Shown here: positions 2,065 through 13,007 of the stretch, in pieces
Layout: each line of letters opens with the position of its first letter
Position numbering within the stretch: the stretch's first letter is position 1
Assembly: GCA_902782505.1 (NCBI GenBank)
Contig: CACZNO010000002.1
Span: 1 to 13,007 of the forward strand
Origin: an uncultured Erysipelotrichaceae bacterium
GTDB taxonomy: Bacteria; Bacillota_I; Bacilli_A; Erysipelotrichales; Erysipelotrichaceae
DNA: 13,007 bases
Direction of reading: 5' to 3'
Program-made: the position numbers and the translations under genes
The notes under the pieces: generated by a model
Told to the model about the DNA's origin: nothing
Database searches by the model: none
What the model saw: only the letters and a program-made list of their open reading frames with translations

Positions 2065-2625
2065 ATGACCGATGATCAGTTGTATCAGGTATATCTTTCC
2101 GGCGATCAATCCGCCGGCGATCAGCTGATGATTCGCTATGCCGACAAACTGACGGCGTATCTGGATGCCTTTCTTCACAATGCGGGGGACGCCGAAGATT
2201 TGATGCTGGATTGCTTCACGGTGATCCTGGTGGACAAACCGAAAATCGCGGAAGGCAATTTCAGTTCCTATCTGTTCAAGGTTGCCCGCAACAAGGCCAA
2301 TCGCCTGTGGAAACTCCGGTTCAAGCGTCAGGAATTCCAACTGGACGAAAGCCTGTATGAAATCATTCCGGCGGAAGATGTTTCCCCGGAAGACCGGGTG
2401 TTCCGAAACGAGCGGAATATCACCCTGCAGCGCTGTTTGGGAAAAATCGCGCCGCAATACCGGGAAGCTTTATGGTTATACTATTTTATGGATATGAGTT
2501 ATGCGGAAGCCGCGAAAGTCATGAACTGTTCAACGAAGAAAGTGGAAGACTTATTGAGAAACGGAAAAGCGCGGCTGAAACAGGAATTGGAAAAGGAGGG
2601 AATCACGTATGCGGACATCGGATGA
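2065..2625 (+). CDS. ECF-family RNA polymerase sigma factor
   Basis: 186 residues, the usual size of an extracytoplasmic-function sigma factor. Sigma region 2 covers about residues 14-85: DAEDL at 42-46 is the core-RNAP-binding signature and SYLFKVARNKANRLWK at 68-83 is the helix contacting the -10 element. Sigma region 4 covers about 121-175, with a helix-turn-helix of the form YAEAAKVMNCSTKKVEDLLRNGKARL (146-171, interrupted here only for description) that would read the -35 element. There is no long C-terminal extension. The ATG follows AAGGGGG (2051-2057) at good spacing. It is the first gene of an operon whose next three products are membrane proteins, one of them a PrsW-type protease, so it is probably held inactive at the membrane and released by proteolysis. 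The regulon is unknown. Family call is firm; the mode of regulation is inferred. Confidence 0.92.
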   Translation: MTDDQLYQVYLSGDQSAGDQLMIRYADKLTAYLDAFLHNAGDAEDLMLDCFTVILVDKPKIAEGNFSSYLFKVARNKANRLWKLRFKRQEFQLDESLYEIIPAEDVSPEDRVFRNERNITLQRCLGKIAPQYREALWLYYFMDMSYAEAAKVMNCSTKKVEDLLRNGKARLKQELEKEGITYADIG

Positions 2626-2932
2626 ACGCATCAGCGAATTACATAAACGCATGGATACACGCCGGTATCAGAAAGACCTGCGGAAATACCGTCTCCAGTC
2701 GGGCCTGATGGCTGCGGGTTGTCTGGCAATCGTGATTGCATTGTCTTTCGTCATGTCCGGCGTATCGGTTCAAAACCCGGACGCTTTGCCGGGCGGGATT
2801 TCCGCGAGTATCTTTGCGGATCACACTGTCTTGGGATACGTGGTGATCGCGCTTTTGGCGTTTAGTCTCGGAGCGTTTGTTACGGTATTCTGTTACCGGC
2901 TGAAAAGACACATGGAGGAACGCGATGATTGA
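2609..2932 (+). CDS. Small two-helix membrane protein, putative anti-sigma factor
   Basis: 107 residues. A basic, probably cytoplasmic N-terminus (1-30) carries the pattern RIxxLHxxM (7-15) followed by many Arg and Lys. A first membrane helix lies at about 31-54, an extracytoplasmic loop of about 18 residues follows, then a second helix at about 73-96 and a basic tail. The gene overlaps the sigma gene by 17 bp, with its own AAGGAGGG (2593-2600) inside the sigma coding region, the arrangement expected for a sigma/anti-sigma pair. I do not recognise a named family, and the cytoplasmic part is shorter than typical zinc or RsiW-like anti-sigma domains, so the anti-sigma role rests on position, topology and the PrsW gene downstream. 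The product of 4279-4575 is a paralogue. Alternative: an accessory or sensory subunit of the 7-helix protein encoded next. Confidence 0.75.
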   Translation: MRTSDERISELHKRMDTRRYQKDLRKYRLQSGLMAAGCLAIVIALSFVMSGVSVQNPDALPGGISASIFADHTVLGYVVIALLAFSLGAFVTVFCYRLKRHMEERDD

Positions 2933-3542
2933 AGTCGTTGAGAATGCCTTACAAATTGCCGTTTTGGTGATCTGTTCCGTGATCGCGGTATACAAAGCGG
3001 TTCACTATAACAGCCGGACCTGGGCTTTGGCGGCTTTCTTTTTCATAAGCTGGGTGATGGGAGACATCTACTGGCTTGTGTGTCTTCTGTTTTATGACAC
3101 GACACCGCAGATCTCCATCGTATCGGATTTGAGCTGGTACGCGTCGTATATGTTTTTGTATCTGATGTTATTGCGGACATCAAAACCGGATCCGGGCAGT
3201 ACGAAACAGGCGCTGCCCTGGCTTGGCCCCCTGTTCGCGGCAGGTATGGCGGTATTCTTTATGCTGAAGGGCGAGATCCTGAACAATCTGATCTACGGAT
3301 CCCTGATGGGATTACTGCTGTTTTCTTCCATCAACCGTCTTATTAACCGCACAACGGACCGGAATCAACGTTTTTTGCCCGCGATGATTCTTGTGTTCTG
3401 CCTTTTGGAATACGGGCTCTGGATTTCTTCGTGCTTCTGGACGTCGGACACTCTCGCCAATCCCTATTACTGGTTTGATGTTCTTTTAACGGTCAGCTTC
3501 CTGTTCTTTCTTCCGGCCATCCGAAAGGCGGTGTCCGCATGA
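2925..3542 (+). CDS. Polytopic membrane protein of unknown function in the sigma/PrsW operon
   Basis: 205 residues, mostly hydrophobic, with about seven predicted membrane helices (roughly 6-25, 33-55, 66-84, 97-115, 117-135, 148-169 and 180-200). Aromatic residues are abundant in the segments around GDIYWL, SWYASYMFLY and NPYYWFDVLL. I do not recognise the family and see no catalytic motif. The ATG follows GGAGGAA (2914-2920) and overlaps the end of the preceding gene by 8 bp; its own TGA overlaps the start of the PrsW gene (ATGA), so the genes are translationally coupled. By position it could be the signal-sensing or scaffold component of the sigma-release circuit, or a target of it; this is inference only. 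Confidence 0.8.
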   Translation: MIEVVENALQIAVLVICSVIAVYKAVHYNSRTWALAAFFFISWVMGDIYWLVCLLFYDTTPQISIVSDLSWYASYMFLYLMLLRTSKPDPGSTKQALPWLGPLFAAGMAVFFMLKGEILNNLIYGSLMGLLLFSSINRLINRTTDRNQRFLPAMILVFCLLEYGLWISSCFWTSDTLANPYYWFDVLLTVSFLFFLPAIRKAVSA

Positions 3543-4168
3543 TCTACATCGAAAACATCTACATCTGTCTGGCCGCTCCGCTTTTCCTGGCGATTCTTTG
3601 CTTAAGGCGTGACGGAAGGAGAAGTCTCATCTTCGTACTGGCGGGCATGAGCGCCTGTCTTCTCTCGGCGTATGTCAGCACCTATCTTGCCGGTGCGGCG
3701 GGTATCGACCAGGCGACCGCGTCCTATGAGATCTCTCCGGCGGTGGAGGAAATCATGAAGTCATTACCGCTTCTGTTTTTCATCCTGGTGTTTGAGCCGG
3801 AGAGAAGATTCGTCCGTTCGGGGACGCTGTTGGTGGCGGTCGGGTTTGCGACCTTCGAGAACGTCTGTTTCCTTACTTCCTATGGCACATCGGATCTTCT
3901 GAGCCTGGTGATCCGCGGATTCGGAACCGGGGCGATGCACGTGGTCTGCGGGATGATCGTGTCCATCGGTTTATTCTATCTTTGGGACCGGATATGGCTC
4001 AGAGTGGTGGGAACCTTCGCGCTTTTGTGCTTTGTCACAACCTTCCATGCGGTCTTCAACATTTTTGTCAGTCAGACCGGTGTGATCTTCTGGATCGGCA
4101 GTCTGATTCCGCTGTCGGCGGTTTTGGTCTATCTGTTGTTTTTCCGGGGGAGAACCGCCAAGCCCTGA
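3539..4168 (+). CDS. PrsW-family intramembrane protease
   Basis: 209 residues with six or seven hydrophobic segments. The PrsW signatures are all present in order: EEIMK (E70, E71, K74), GFATFEN (E107, N108), H134 in GAMHVVCG, and H170/N174 in FHAVFN. These Glu and His residues are the likely metal ligands and catalytic residues of this membrane-embedded family. In Bacillus subtilis, PrsW makes the site-1 cut in the anti-sigma factor RsiW and so activates the ECF sigma factor SigW. Here the gene shares an operon with an ECF sigma factor and a small membrane protein, so the small protein (and perhaps its paralogue at 4279-4575) is the obvious candidate substrate. The start overlaps the upstream stop (ATGA), with AAAGGCGG (3525-3532) as a probable ribosome site. 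Family call is strong; substrate is inferred. Confidence 0.88.
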   Translation: MIYIENIYICLAAPLFLAILCLRRDGRRSLIFVLAGMSACLLSAYVSTYLAGAAGIDQATASYEISPAVEEIMKSLPLLFFILVFEPERRFVRSGTLLVAVGFATFENVCFLTSYGTSDLLSLVIRGFGTGAMHVVCGMIVSIGLFYLWDRIWLRVVGTFALLCFVTTFHAVFNIFVSQTGVIFWIGSLIPLSAVLVYLLFFRGRTAKP

Positions 4169-4206: not shown

Positions 4207-4242
4207 GCGTTTGGGTTCGGGTTTTTCCTTTGTTCCGTACAC

Positions 4243-4248
4243 ATAATA
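4243..4248 (+). promoter_or_regulatory. Weak candidate -10 element before the second small membrane gene
   Basis: CATAAT matches five of six consensus -10 bases and lies 30 bp before the start codon at 4279, just past the terminator. No convincing -35 hexamer is present at 16-18 bp (the sequence there is G/T-rich). It may need an activator or an alternative sigma factor. Confidence 0.3.
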
Positions 4249-4278
4249 GGTGAAAGGCTTATGCAGGAGGGTTGTCCT

Positions 4279-4575
4279 ATGATGACAGAAGAAAACCGCA
4301 TCGCGGCTTTACATGAGAAAATGGCTGCCCGCCGGCGCATGCAGGAGCGGCGGAAAACAGGCGTAATAGGCGCATGCAGCGTCGTCCTTTCCGTCTGCCT
4401 TCTCTTTGTTGTCCTTGAAAGCGGAATCGGACACGGTAACCAGGCATCCGGTATGTACAGCGGTGCCATGATTCTGTTTGAAGGTGTCGGAGGGTATGCG
4501 TTGGTCGCCATCATCGCGTTTACGGCAGCCGTAATCATTACGGTACTTTGCATGCGCCGTCAAAACAGGAAGTAG
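4279..4575 (+). CDS. Small two-helix membrane protein, paralogue of the putative anti-sigma factor
   Basis: 98 residues starting at the tandem ATGATG behind CAGGAGGG (4264-4271). The frame is open further upstream, but that part has no ribosome site and would cross the terminator, so the start at 4279 is preferred. Layout matches the product of 2609-2932: a basic N-terminus with RIxxLHxxMxxRR at the same residue numbers (7-19), a membrane helix at about 27-48, a loop of about 24 residues, then a helix at about 72-92 starting GYALVAIIAF (compare GYVVIALLAF in the paralogue), a Cys near the end of the helix, and a basic tail. The two genes therefore come from duplication. This copy lies 40 bp in front of the large secreted protein gene with no terminator between, so they are probably co-transcribed. 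Function unknown; possible roles are a second anti-sigma-like regulator, a decoy PrsW substrate, or a partner of the secreted protein. Confidence 0.78.
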   Translation: MMTEENRIAALHEKMAARRRMQERRKTGVIGACSVVLSVCLLFVVLESGIGHGNQASGMYSGAMILFEGVGGYALVAIIAFTAAVIITVLCMRRQNRK

Positions 4576-9489: not shown

Positions 9490-9521
9490 AAGTGATGCGG
9501 ATCTTCGCATCACTTTTCTTT
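9490..9521. terminator. Bidirectional terminator shared by tRNA-His and the CBS-domain gene
   Basis: A 10-bp stem, AAGTGATGCG (9490-9499) with CGCATCACTT (9506-9515), encloses a 6-base loop. On the plus strand it is followed by TTCTTTT; on the minus strand by G and six T residues (complement of 9483-9488). The stop codon of the minus-strand CBS gene (9510-9512) and its last lysine codon lie inside the stem. Confidence 0.88.
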
Positions 9522-9932
9522 TGTCAAAGGCAGAAACTGTTCGGATAACAGACTCAACAGTTCTTTCCGCTTGATGATTCCGATGAATACGTCCCTGTCA
9601 TCCACGACCGGGATGAAACTCTGGTCCAGCGATAACGCAAAGACTTCCACCAGAAGAGCGCTGGAATACAAGGCGCGGTAGGGACGATAGTGCTCAATGT
9701 CCTTGATCAGGACCTTTTCCGCTTCGTGCACGTCAAAATGCGCGCGGTTTTTTATGTAATGTAAGATATCTCCTTCCGATACGGTCCCGGTGTACTTTCC
9801 CTGATCATTGATCAGGGGAACAACACTGAAACGGTGCGCGTCAAATTTTTCAAGCGCCTGGCGGATCGTGCAGTTTTCGTCCAGATAATATGTGAACTTT
9901 TTCGGCGTCAGTAATTGAAGGATGTTCGTCAT
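9510..9932 (-). CDS. Two-CBS-domain protein
   Basis: 140 residues made almost wholly of a CBS-domain pair. The first covers about residues 9-61 (TIRQALEKF, then HRFSVVPLIND, then YTGTVSEGDIL); the second about 78-132 (LVEVFALSLDQSFIPVVDD, then FIGIIKRKELLSLL). Stand-alone CBS pairs of this size usually form dimers that bind adenine nucleotides or S-adenosyl compounds; in Firmicutes CbpB/DarB (about 147 residues) binds c-di-AMP and acts through a partner protein. The ligand here cannot be told from sequence. No catalytic or membrane segment is present, so it should be cytosolic. The start fits where related proteins begin, yet there is no Shine-Dalgarno sequence before it and a TATAAT lies only 6 bp upstream, suggesting a leaderless message. 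It is convergent with tRNA-His and divergent from the subtilase gene. Confidence 0.88.
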   Translation of the reverse strand: MTNILQLLTPKKFTYYLDENCTIRQALEKFDAHRFSVVPLINDQGKYTGTVSEGDILHYIKNRAHFDVHEAEKVLIKDIEHYRPYRALYSSALLVEVFALSLDQSFIPVVDDRDVFIGIIKRKELLSLLSEQFLPLTKEK

Positions 9933-10093: not shown

Positions 10094-10115
10094 TTGAGTA
10101 TTAGTTTACTCCGTC

Positions 10116-10137
10116 TGCGGAATTGTCCGCATGCGGA
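10116..10137 (+). promoter_or_regulatory. Alternating hairpin arms in the subtilase leader
   Basis: TGCGGA (10116-10121), TCCGCA (10126-10131) and a second TGCGGA (10132-10137) lie in a row. The middle copy can pair with the first across the loop ATTG; it also forms a 12-bp DNA palindrome with the third (10126-10137). The third copy adjoins the ribosome site AGGAGG (10139-10144), so the element could act as an operator or affect ribosome access. Confidence 0.4.
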
Positions 10138-10150
10138 GAGGAGGAGCCTT

Positions 10151-13007
10151 ATGAGAGAAGTATGGAAGAAACTGTTGGCGGTTCTGGTCGTCGTCCTCAT
10201 GATGACGAATCAGACAGTTTCCGCACTGGCGTACGAGACCCCGGAAGGGGATGACAAGGAAACCGGTACGGAACTGGTGCTGGAGGATCTGGATCCCAAA
10301 TCTTTAGGAATCCGGTATCTCGGCGAAGAAGGGGAAACACCCGCATCTCCGGCAGAAGACCTGGAAAGCCTGACGGATATCGTCCGTGTTTCGATCGTTC
10401 TGGAAGACGAATCGACGCTGGAACACGGGTATTCCGCAGAGAATATCGCCTACAATACGCAGGCAGTGTCCTACCGTGACGCGTTAAAAGTCAAACAGGA
10501 CGAACTGACCGCGCGCATTGAAAAAGAAATCGGCGCGAAGCTGGACGTTCAATGGAACATGACCCTGGCGGTCAACATCATTTCCGCGAACGTGAAAGTG
10601 AAGGATATTCCGCTGATTGAAAATGTGGAAGGCGTCAAGAAGGTCGTACGGGAAAACCGTTACGAAGCCCTGGTGGACGATCCCAAGACGGTCAACACCT
10701 CCCAGTTCATGGTCGGGGCGTCCTCCGCGTGGTCCGCGGGATACTACGGTGCGGGAAGCCGGATCGCCATCATCGATACCGGTATCGACACGACCCACCA
10801 GTCCTTTAACGCGGACGCGTTTAATCACGCGATTGCGGAAGACGGATCTTCTTCCGAACTCATGACGCAGATTTCCTCGACGGTATTGAACAGCCTCAAC
10901 GCCAAGAGCAAGCTTTCTTCCCTGACGGCGGCGCAGACGTATGTTTCCGCGAAAATCCCGTTCGGATTCAACTATGTCGACGGAAGCACCACCATTAACC
11001 ACATCAACGATACCCAGGGCGAACATGGGTCCCATGTCGCTGGTATTGCGTCGGCGAACCGTTATATCAAAAACGGATCGTCCTACGATGAAGCAATTTC
11101 TTCCGTAAAAGCGGTCGGCATGGCGCCGGACGCGCAGTTACTGATCATGAAGGTTTTCGGCTCCAAGGGCGGCGCGTACGATTCCGACTACATGGTCGCA
11201 ATCGAAGACGCCATCACCTTAGGCGCGGACGCGGTGAACCTGTCGTTAGGTTCCGGCGCGCCGGGCTGGACTTATGATTCCACCTACCAGGATGTATTAA
11301 ACAACCTGAGTTCTTCCAACAACGTGAAGACGGTCGTTTCGATTTCCGCCGGCAACGCCGGTCCGATCACCGAAAACCTGACCACCGATTTATATATTGA
11401 AGACGTAGGAATGCACACGGGCGGTTCCCCGGGATCGTTCCTGAACAGTCTGGGCGTCGCGTCCGCCGATAACATCGGGGAAACCGGCACGCCGTTAACG
11501 TTCAACGGAAACCAGACCGTATACTACACCGAAACCGAAAGCACCGGTGCGGCGATGTCCTCCATTGCCGGATCGTATTCCTATGTGTTCATTGACGCCG
11601 TTGGGAACACCGCGGACTATCAGGCCGTCAACAGCGCGGAAAGCTTAAGCGGCAAGATCGTCATCGTCAACCGCGGCGAACTGAGCTTCTATGAAAAAGG
11701 CAACAACGCGAAATCCTACAGCCCGAAGGCGGTCATCGTCGCGAATAACCAGGCCGGCGCCATTTCGATGGACCTCTCGGATTACACCGGCACGTTCCCG
11801 ATGGTTTCGATCACTCTTTCGGACGCGAACACGATCAAGGCGAATTCCACGGCGCACACCACCGGAAATTATACGTATTACACCGGTTCGGTCACCGTCA
11901 CCAACGCGATGTCTTCCGGTTTGACGACAAGCCGTGACAACGCGATCGTTTCGTCCTTCAGTTCCTGGGGCGTTCCGGGATCGCTGGTCATGAAGCCGGA
12001 AATCACCGCGCCGGGCGGAAGCATCCGTTCGGTCGCCGGCACCAACAAGACCACTTCCGGCGCAACCGCAGGCGGATCCACGGCTTATGAAATCATGTCC
12101 GGTACGTCCATGGCGGCTCCGCACATCACCGGTTTATCCGCACTGGTGGCGGAATACCTGCGTGAAAACGATCTCTCCGCGGTCAATTCCGCGCTGACTT
12201 CGAAGTACACGAACCGCGCGATCGTTCAGAGCTTACTGATGTCGACTGCGACTCCGATGAAGCCCAACGGTGAGTATCTGTCGGTCCTGCAGCAGGGCTC
12301 CGGCTTAGCGGAGGTCTCCAAGGCCGTAAGCGCGTCCAGCGTCATCATGATGAGCGAGGACGACGATACCCTGACCGCATCCACCGGTTCCGCGGCGGAC
12401 GGCAAGGTCAAAGCCGAATTCGGCGACGATCCCAAGCGCCAGGGCGAATATGAATATTCTTTCACCATCTACAACATCACGGATACCGATCTTGCGTATA
12501 CGCTGGCGACGGATCTCTTCACTCAGAAGGCAGAAGACGGCTTCATGCGCGAAGGTACGGAAGCGATCACGGCGAATGTCCGTTATATCTATGATTCCGA
12601 AGGAGCGGTGAGCCATGACGTCGACAAAGACGGGGATACCGACAATGACGACGCGCAGGCGATCCTGGATTATCTGACCGGCAAGCTGCCGGCGTCCGAT
12701 GCGGATTTGTCCGCGGCGGATCTGGACAACGACGGTGCGGTGACTTCGGCGGATGCGCGGTTATTACTGGGATATGAACCGACAGTACAGGAAGGCTTAA
12801 TCGTCAAGGCCGGATCTTCCAAGAAAGTTACGGTCAAGATTTCCTTAAAGAATAAGGACGCCCTCGACGCGTCGCATCCTAACGGCGCCTATGTCGAAGG
12901 TTACACCTATGTCAACTGCACCACCAAAGGCGCAGGGGACGGCGTAAGCCTTGAACACACGCATTCGATTCCGCTGTTAGGTTTCTACGGCAGCTGGACC
13001 GATCCGT
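10151..13007 (+). CDS. Secreted subtilisin-family (S8) protease, lactocepin/C5a-peptidase type, with dockerin-like insert; 3'-truncated
   Basis: 952 residues are visible; the frame is open to the window end. ATG behind AGGAGG (10139-10144). The signal peptide lies at about 1-27 (cleavage near SALA). An I9-like propeptide region (about 78-178) precedes the catalytic domain. The triad is complete: D209 in IAIIDTGID, H292 in GEHGSHVAG and S653 in SGTSMAAPH, with oxyanion-hole N402 in SAGNAG. A PA-type insert (about 483-560, SGKIVIVNRG) sits between His and Ser, as in lactocepins and C5a peptidases. An Fn3-like region begins about 750; in it, residues 823-875 carry two Ca-loop-plus-helix units (loops 823-834 and 857-868, each with Asp at 1, 3, 5 and 12) typical of dockerin modules, after which the Fn3-like sequence resumes (NGAYVEGYTYV). 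The C-terminus and any wall anchor are outside the window. Family is firm; substrate is unknown. Confidence 0.93.
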   Translation, partial: MREVWKKLLAVLVVVLMMTNQTVSALAYETPEGDDKETGTELVLEDLDPKSLGIRYLGEEGETPASPAEDLESLTDIVRVSIVLEDESTLEHGYSAENIAYNTQAVSYRDALKVKQDELTARIEKEIGAKLDVQWNMTLAVNIISANVKVKDIPLIENVEGVKKVVRENRYEALVDDPKTVNTSQFMVGASSAWSAGYYGAGSRIAIIDTGIDTTHQSFNADAFNHAIAEDGSSSELMTQISSTVLNSLNAKSKLSSLTAAQTYVSAKIPFGFNYVDGSTTINHINDTQGEHGSHVAGIASANRYIKNGSSYDEAISSVKAVGMAPDAQLLIMKVFGSKGGAYDSDYMVAIEDAITLGADAVNLSLGSGAPGWTYDSTYQDVLNNLSSSNNVKTVVSISAGNAGPITENLTTDLYIEDVGMHTGGSPGSFLNSLGVASADNIGETGTPLTFNGNQTVYYTETESTGAAMSSIAGSYSYVFIDAVGNTADYQAVNSAESLSGKIVIVNRGELSFYEKGNNAKSYSPKAVIVANNQAGAISMDLSDYTGTFPMVSITLSDANTIKANSTAHTTGNYTYYTGSVTVTNAMSSGLTTSRDNAIVSSFSSWGVPGSLVMKPEITAPGGSIRSVAGTNKTTSGATAGGSTAYEIMSGTSMAAPHITGLSALVAEYLRENDLSAVNSALTSKYTNRAIVQSLLMSTATPMKPNGEYLSVLQQGSGLAEVSKAVSASSVIMMSEDDDTLTASTGSAADGKVKAEFGDDPKRQGEYEYSFTIYNITDTDLAYTLATDLFTQKAEDGFMREGTEAITANVRYIYDSEGAVSHDVDKDGDTDNDDAQAILDYLTGKLPASDADLSAADLDNDGAVTSADARLLLGYEPTVQEGLIVKAGSSKKVTVKISLKNKDALDASHPNGAYVEGYTYVNCTTKGAGDGVSLEHTHSIPLLGFYGSWTDP
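12617..12775 (+). other. Dockerin-like duplicated Ca-binding module inside the subtilase
   Basis: Residues 823-875 of the subtilase: DVDKDGDTDNDD followed by AQAILDYLTG, a short linker, then DLDNDGAVTSAD followed by ARLLLGY. Each 12-residue loop has Asp at Ca-ligand positions 1, 3, 5 and 12, and a helix follows, the layout of a dockerin. Dockerins dock to cohesins on scaffold or surface proteins; no cohesin is seen in this window. Confidence 0.82.

Follow-up and report, generated by a model that had tools for sequence, protein, structure and literature searches.

A PrsW-containing ECF sigma factor cassette of gut anaerobes as a candidate sensor-protease switch with a single target transcript

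Proteolytic release of a sigma factor is known from the SigW–RsiW–PrsW–RasP system of Bacillus subtilis (available text of PMC3498285), and the available text of PMC8103513 and PMC7406223 covers the release of sigma factors by proteolysis as well. Class I anti-sigma factors are described in the accessible part of PMC7406223 as having a recognisable cytosolic domain of 50 aa or more, and CnrH–CnrY is described there and in PMC8103513 as a class II case, in which a short helical cytosolic peptide holds an extracytoplasmic function (ECF) sigma factor without a class I domain. Here, we describe a cassette in the window, the 13,007-nt stretch analysed (positions 1 to 13,007 of contig CACZNO010000002.1, assembly GCA_902782505.1, from an uncultured Erysipelotrichaceae bacterium), which carries genes for an ECF sigma factor, two small membrane proteins with two transmembrane (TM) helices each (S1 and S2), a protein with seven such helices (7TM), a PrsW-family protease, and a giant secreted protein. 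An incomplete genome (1.46 Mb, 88% complete) contains the window as its contig C2. The features of the cassette are as follows.

2065..2625, plus strand: ECF-type sigma factor, 186 aa, with matches to Pfam, NCBIfam and PDB sequences
2609..2932, plus strand: S1, small two-TM membrane protein, 107 aa, overlapping the sigma gene by 17 nt, from alignments and paralogy with S2
2925..3542, plus strand: 7TM sensor-like protein, 205 aa, N terminus outside by charge, overlapping S1 by 8 nt
3539..4168, plus strand: PrsW-family intramembrane protease, 209 aa, overlapping the 7TM gene by 4 nt, matched by PF13367
4182..4205, plus strand: intrinsic terminator, a six-pair stem followed by eight T, starting 13 bases past the prsW stop codon
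4214..4253, plus strand: conserved bipartite element, candidate sigma-dependent promoter (block A, 4214-4226; block B, 4238-4253)
4279-4575, plus strand: S2, second small two-TM membrane protein, 98 aa, paralogue of S1 with 29% identity
4616..9262, plus strand: giant secreted protein of 1548 aa, comprising a signal peptide by a home-made rule, an FG-GAP-like region (below cut-off), a conserved core, and five Ig domains

The evidence points to a self-contained ECF switch that would sense through the 7TM protein, be operated by PrsW, and serve one target transcript. For all of its steps jointly, we put the chances at about even, because the steps support one another; the parts carry their own, differing degrees of confidence, given below.

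A profile built from 22 aligned 7TM proteins was scanned against a collection of 84,980 species, each represented by one genome, and returned 43 loci, L009–L051. These yielded 44 modules once L050, a hybrid histidine kinase and not a cassette, was removed and the second tandem copy of L033 and the window were added. Gene order could be assessed in 42 of the 44, as L026 and L046 are truncated by contig ends, and in 41 of the 42 the sigma, 7TM, and PrsW genes follow this order along the same strand, interrupted by no more than an S gene; the sole exception is L051, which has an internal deletion. Most loci carry the titles Lachnospiraceae, Clostridia, or similar, many of the records being ruminant gut metagenome-assembled genomes (MAGs) of Lachnospiraceae, Clostridia, Oscillospiraceae, or Erysipelotrichaceae, and judged by their titles two hosts, Acetivibrio mesophilus N2K1 (L036) and Lachnospiraceae bacterium G11 (L033), do not look metagenomic. 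Sequence distances of the cassette proteins are correlated (sigma–PrsW, 0.89; 7TM–PrsW, 0.86; sigma–7TM, 0.83; sigma–S1, 0.80; sigma–S2, 0.73), as computed over 31 to 40 loci with L033 and L050 excluded, at a permutation p of 0.0005, the floor for 2000 permutations. Chance or simple co-inheritance of neighbours was considered and rejected: the same order is found under the record titles Erysipelotrichaceae, Lachnospiraceae, Oscillospiraceae, and Acetivibrio, while what lies upstream of sigma varies (by eye, in part of the listing), and the element follows S2 in two rearranged or damaged loci.

The sigma factor scores above the Pfam cut-offs for Sigma70_r2 (26.8 bits; cut-off, 24) and Sigma70_r4_2 (47.7; 25.7) and above that of the NCBIfam sigma70-ECF model TIGR02937 (78.3 versus 42.9 bits), which places it among the ECF sigma factors. 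Its closest solved sequence is SigW (5wuq, E 4.5e-12), and CnrH is among its seven PDB sequence matches; it falls well short of the two SigW equivalog cut-offs (NF007223, 51.8 versus 209 bits; TIGR02948, 49.3 versus 243.1 bits). The protease belongs to the PrsW family by PF13367 (45.3 bits; cut-off, 23.5) and by its motifs, with E70, E71, K74, E107, N108, H134, H170, and N174 kept in 40-41 of 41 sequences, the window's included, and it lies far below the cut-off of the NCBIfam equivalog NF033739 (16.9 versus 225 bits). A preliminary description of the window had proposed four overlapping genes, a PrsW identity with its motif residues in place, and an operon whose gene order could be looked for in relatives. 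The coordinates and overlaps match, the protease assignment is confirmed by the family match and the conservation of its residues, and the neighbourhood of sigma factor, small TM protein, 7TM protein, and PrsW recurs in other modules. The genome contains one match to the M50 site-2 proteases.

Several observations on individual loci and proteins accompany these results. In L051 (3104-4400), the deletion took prsW and the greater part of both S1 and the 7TM gene, leaving sigma, the element, S2, and the gene for a large secreted protein; it is either a natural deletion or an assembly error. Lachnospiraceae bacterium G11 has tandem modules (L033, 5552-10541), the first lacking S1 and its S2 directly adjoining the sigma gene of the second. 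A frameshift or sequencing error splits prsW into two open reading frames (ORFs) in L025 (8156-9294) and likewise the 7TM gene in L049 (7846-8183). The cysteines C10, C40, C110, and C137 of PrsW are kept in 39-41 of 41 sequences. The genome has a second PrsW-family gene (L001, 1396-2109, contig C219), with no sigma gene among the adjacent ORFs.

Between prsW and S2, 16 of 36 loci have a terminator-like hairpin ahead of the element, where shuffled sequences would give 1.3. The element was found by expectation maximisation (EM) on 36 prsW-to-S2 regions, seeded with a consensus spotted by eye, and the EM consensus reads GGTTNGGGTTTTT, a gap of 10-11 nt, and GACACNTATANNGTGA. The block starts are 23-24 nt apart, a spacing that fits the −35/−10 pair of an ECF promoter, and in the window the GGAGGG ribosome site lies 28 nt past the start of block B, which itself comes after the terminator. 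With a matrix made from 26 sites, 33 of 38 S2 genes show a match of 14 bits or more immediately in front of them. Six further matches, at 14-16 bits, lie elsewhere in the loci, which is close to the rate in the controls (8 per 1.08 Mb). Two of the 33 come from outside the EM set, namely L032 (27.5 bits), which has a new gene order, and L051 (40.3 bits), which has lost 7TM and PrsW. As the order in L032 is sigma–element–S2–7TM–PrsW, the element goes with S2 rather than with the prsW end. When each locus in turn was left out of the matrix, the best site of the entire locus on both strands fell upstream of S2 (300-650 nt before its stop codon; L033 unused) in 32 of 36 loci; the failures were L035, L037, L044, and L049, where variants such as GTATCTATA or GCGACTATA can be seen by eye. 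Scanning 42 sigma upstream regions with the matrix gave a maximum of 8.8 bits and no element. In the window's own genome, two strict patterns matched once each, both at the 4214-4253 element, and a looser pattern with 15 fixed bases, searched in the genomes of 19 of the 42 loci, matched nine times, once in each of nine genomes and, by coordinates, always at a cassette element. Variation of the element tracks distances of the sigma factor (r 0.57), and equally those of 7TM (0.54) and PrsW (0.59). Judged by these sequence patterns, S2 and the giant gene form a separate transcript with a predicted promoter dedicated to it, and it is very probable that the cassette sigma factor reads this promoter.

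The gap between S2 and the giant gene is 40 nt in the window, and a 4-nt overlap of start and stop is seen in 11 of 37 loci. In 30 of the 37 S2 loci with room for a further gene (the contig of L025 ends at S2), the next protein has a signal peptide by the home-made rule, and 24 of these 30 secreted proteins read at least 700 aa, some being cut by contig or locus ends. Twenty-two Pfam families were found across 25 of the 30 giants (L010, L014, L027, L033 copy 2, and L037 omitted; for L017, the second gene after S2), none of them in more than four giants; they include InlB-type repeats, Ig, collagen, FG-GAP, and zinc-dependent phospholipase C. The giants fall into several families by BLAST, and only 5 of 18 locus pairs with 60-70% 7TM identity have a giant match of at least 50 bits, so one kind of switch appears to drive different giants. 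Eight other loci encode giants that share the core of the window's giant. The structure prediction for the window's giant is poor (predicted local distance difference test score, pLDDT, 48.8), with no more than a suggestion of long beta hairpins such as those of pore-forming proteins. Within the core (residues 440-1011), two pairs of beta strands of ∼30 residues each are predicted, resembling beta-pore-forming proteins at low model confidence.

S1 and S2 are recognisable paralogues (29% identity, E 9e-15), and a search at E ≤ 10 shows no third copy in the assembly. A homologue search with S1 returned 64 proteins besides itself and one with S2 only three, one of them 99% identical to the query; a search with a single S2 sequence therefore misses most of the family that synteny reveals. 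S1 has no Pfam or NCBIfam match above cut-off, and no anti-sigma domain was recognised in S1 or S2, in agreement with the earlier statement that the small protein lacks one; the cytosolic parts of both are ∼30 aa by eye, shorter than the domain of class I anti-sigma factors. S1 is marked by a cytosolic N-terminal motif, RT.EERI..LH.RM, an outer loop with ASIFA, and TM2. In a tree, 32 full-length S1 and 38 S2 sequences separate without error (support, 0.78); the S2 set includes an S2-type protein in the S1 place of L032 and the S2 of L051, and six S1 pieces or cut-off copies were omitted. Both groups have in common the N-terminal cytosolic segment (T3, E5, E6, R7, I/V8, L11, H12, R14, M15) and residues of TM2 (G76, Y77, A81, A84, F85, T92, C95, R97), and they differ in TM1 and the outer loop, which reads ASIFA in S1 versus YSG..MLFE.AGGY in S2. 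A peptide pheromone derived from this loop is disfavoured, as the loop motifs are near-constant between species within S1 and within S2. C95 of S1 is invariant in 26 aligned rows.

S1 could be judged in 43 of the 44 modules (L026 is cut by its contig) and S2 in 41 (the contigs of L022, L043, and L046 stop before it). Full-length S1 is present in 32 of 43: it is cut down to the TM2 part in L022, L023, L037, and L048 (L022 also keeps ∼10 N-terminal residues), consists of the N-terminal peptide only in L025 and L051, is a short remnant in L028, is gone from L033 copy 1, L034, and L045, and is replaced in L032. S2 is present in 38 of 41, missing from L012, L018, and L029. At least one full-length S protein is found in all 43 modules in which this could be judged (L022 could not). 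S1, which is lost, decayed, or replaced in 11 of 43 modules, is thus dispensable and cannot be the sole essential anti-sigma factor. The preliminary description had placed the small protein of the operon in the anti-sigma position by itself, and this part of it is not supported in that form; a candidate for a shared role, S2, lies beyond the positions it considered. The same extension modifies the idea of a self-contained operon, whose four-gene neighbourhood stands, while its likely dedicated target, S2 and the giant gene behind the promoter-like element, lies outside the positions first assigned to it. We consider that S1 and S2 are probably both short tethers for the sigma factor, with S2 giving feedback.

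The 7TM protein has no Pfam or NCBIfam match above cut-off and has 248 homologues besides itself, 119 of which were listed. Its AlphaFold2 model shows seven long helices and one of five residues at a mean pLDDT of 92. The predicted bundle resembles those of rhodopsin and G protein-coupled receptors. The outer half contains 33 of the 40 most conserved residues, and lysine plus arginine number 1 in the outer half and 11 in the inner half. A profile of the family had no match at E ≤ 1 among PDB sequences. The helix-7 lysine that carries retinal in microbial rhodopsins is not a feature of the family: a lysine occurs within helix-7 residues 180-198 in 1 of 50 rows, and the only one of the window protein in this part is at 201. 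The N terminus of the hybrid histidine kinase in L050 (174-3548) is homologous to the cassette 7TM protein (110.7 bits with the 7TM profile) and has no Pfam match in that region, so this region is a probable unnamed 7TM sensor domain. Membership of HisKA_7TM (PF16927) was rejected on the absence of an hmmscan match and an hhalign probability of 1.1, in a profile comparison that used 14 of the 22 matches found. The bundle model, the conservation of the outer half, and the homology to a kinase N terminus all favour the earlier suggestion that the polytopic protein is a possible sensor, and we regard a sensor function as likely. C17 of the 7TM protein is invariant in 50 rows.

In the mechanism that we propose, the 7TM protein would sense something outside the membrane and set the activity of its neighbour PrsW. 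PrsW would then cut the two-TM S proteins in their short outer loop, leaving TM1 as an N-in helix with a short outer stub. Such a helix is the usual substrate of site-2 proteases, as established for RsiW-type regulated intramembrane proteolysis, and the single M50 site-2 protease found in the genome would then free the N-terminal tether. Both S1, made together with sigma, and S2 would keep the ECF sigma factor membrane-bound by means of their N-terminal RT.EERI..LH.RM segment, and freed sigma would read one promoter, the 4214-4253 element, to make S2 and the giant. As S2 is made with the giant, each burst of giant synthesis would also yield an S2 inhibitor that recaptures sigma, a built-in negative feedback. 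Conservation of the common N-terminal segment makes it somewhat probable that the S proteins hold sigma through it, and we give similar credence to cleavage of S in the outer loop by PrsW followed by the single M50 protease; PrsW may be controlled by the 7TM protein. More speculatively, and with odds that we consider to be somewhat against it, a receptor shaped like rhodopsin or a G protein-coupled receptor (GPCR) could gate PrsW directly and free sigma from very short two-TM tethers to act at one promoter in the genome, with S2 as a second tether that counts and limits synthesis of the giant from the same transcript, and with different giants (Ig/FG-GAP, collagen-like, phospholipase-C-like) plugged in.

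Several points weigh against the switch as we propose it. The consensus of the element differs from the common ECF promoter pair, GGAAC/CGTC, and the element is linked to sigma by association. In 10 of the 19 related genomes, the looser pattern found no match, not even the cassette's own element; the elements of these ten deviate from the pattern, and among the 19 the single-target result covers the nine genomes that matched. Neither S2 nor the element is present in L012, L018, and L029, and the gene after S2 does not encode a large secreted protein in 7 of 37 S2 loci (L020, L032, L033 copy 1, L039, L040, L042, and L047). S1 is often decayed, absent, or replaced, as described above, and the rule that each module keeps at least one S protein is non-significant and proves little by itself, because chance alone would give ∼0.8 double losses (hand arithmetic). 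The VIA scores for the likeness of the 7TM model to a rhodopsin/GPCR bundle are at a level that helical bundles can reach by arrangement alone, and no Foldseek match of the model reaches E 0.001. Contact between sigma and the S proteins, and cleavage of the latter, are predictions from sequence.

The frequent absence of a full-length S1 would be accommodated if sigma reads the S2-giant promoter and S1 and S2 serve 7TM and PrsW as partners in assembly or gating, with sigma held otherwise or controlled by its own expression. This arrangement would also suit the cytosolic N-terminal part of ∼30 residues with no known anti-sigma domain, the fact that S1 and S2 share TM2 about as well as the N terminus, and the retention of just the TM2 part and tail of S1 in L023, L037, and L048. 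We nevertheless consider it unlikely, if still the strongest of the alternatives: the N-terminal motif, which both paralogues conserve, is on the cytosolic side, where sigma is, the S1 gene comes right after that of sigma, overlapping it by 17 nt, in the usual place of an anti-sigma gene, and it is the N-terminal peptide alone that survives in L025 and L051. Tethering by the S proteins is the reading that we prefer.

The position of secreted proteins after S2 in 30 of 37 loci raises another explanation, in which PrsW chiefly processes or exports the giant or S2, as proposed for PrsW-linked toxins, and sigma merely co-regulates; fusions between PrsW and toxin domains occur elsewhere (available text of PMC3482391). 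Here, however, PrsW stands alone in the sigma transcript ahead of the terminator, it is kept in L012 and L029, where neither S2 nor a giant follows, and the giants belong to several unrelated families, all of which makes this explanation improbable. Slightly less probable still is that the element is an operator or untranslated-RNA element of another regulator and not the promoter of sigma. Its tie to sigma is one of association and its consensus is unusual for ECF promoters, yet it has two blocks at a constant 23-24 nt, with block B of the window 28 nt before GGAGGG and after the terminator, it occurs with the cassette only, save for the six chance-level matches of 14-16 bits, and its variation follows sigma distances (r 0.57), though equally those of 7TM (0.54) and PrsW (0.59). 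We continue to regard the element as the candidate promoter read by the cassette sigma factor.

The cassette is rare around its host, occurring in 1 of 392 genomes of the window's phylum, that one being its own, and in 2 of 145 relatives, its own genome counted among the two. By the 7TM protein, the nearest named relatives among the matches listed are Solobacterium sp. MAGs, one of them titled dairy cattle duodenum. Immediately upstream of the window's cassette, and outside the conserved part, is a gene for a clostripain-family (C11) peptidase (10-1917). On the other side are a CBS-domain protein on the minus strand (9510-9932), whose top NCBIfam match is the c-di-AMP-binding CbpB at a score below cut-off (61 versus 125 bits), and a subtilase with PA and dockerin type I domains that adjoins the cassette (10094-13006). 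A dockerin on a protease of this family is unusual.

ECF sigma factors, PrsW, and the proteolytic release of sigma are known, and within the portions of the openly licensed PMC literature available to us we found no description of the 7TM protein, the S1/S2 pair, the element, or the cassette. These results point to a family of 7TM sensors, unmatched in Pfam, that a sigma cassette has in common with a hybrid histidine kinase, and they suggest a modular control of very large surface or secreted proteins in gut anaerobes, through a candidate switch common to dozens of related gut microbes. To our knowledge, the activation of PrsW in model systems is not settled. The cassette brings together protease, candidate receptor, candidate substrates, sigma factor, and a single predicted promoter in ∼7 kb, so the entire pathway could be rebuilt in B. 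subtilis and the role of the receptor probed there.

Compared with known systems, the free-standing 7TM protein resembles HisKA_7TM (PF16927) and other bacterial 7TM sensor domains in being a seven-helix sensor-like module that also heads the histidine kinase of L050, and it differs from HisKA_7TM in having no profile link and in lying beside a protease and a sigma factor. As with PrsW-linked polymorphic toxins (available text of PMC3482391), PrsW is encoded near large secreted proteins; the cassette PrsW is, in contrast, a separate 209-aa protein in a regulatory transcript, with no N-terminal fusion to a toxin. CnrH–CnrY would find a parallel in the short conserved N-terminal segment of S1 and S2 if this segment holds sigma, and CnrH matches the cassette sigma factor in sequence; the two TM helices, the paralogous pair, and the PrsW in the operon are peculiar to the cassette. 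The closest likeness is to SigW–RsiW–PrsW–RasP, with which the cassette has in common an ECF sigma factor (SigW being its best-scoring solved sequence), conserved PrsW catalytic residues, a membrane protein gene beside sigma, and one M50 match in the genome. Unlike that system, the cassette has its PrsW, which lies far below the NCBIfam equivalog cut-off, and a 7TM protein inside the sigma operon, two short paralogous two-TM proteins with no recognisable anti-sigma domain, and apparently one target transcript, as against the 89 genes given in the available text of PMC3498285.

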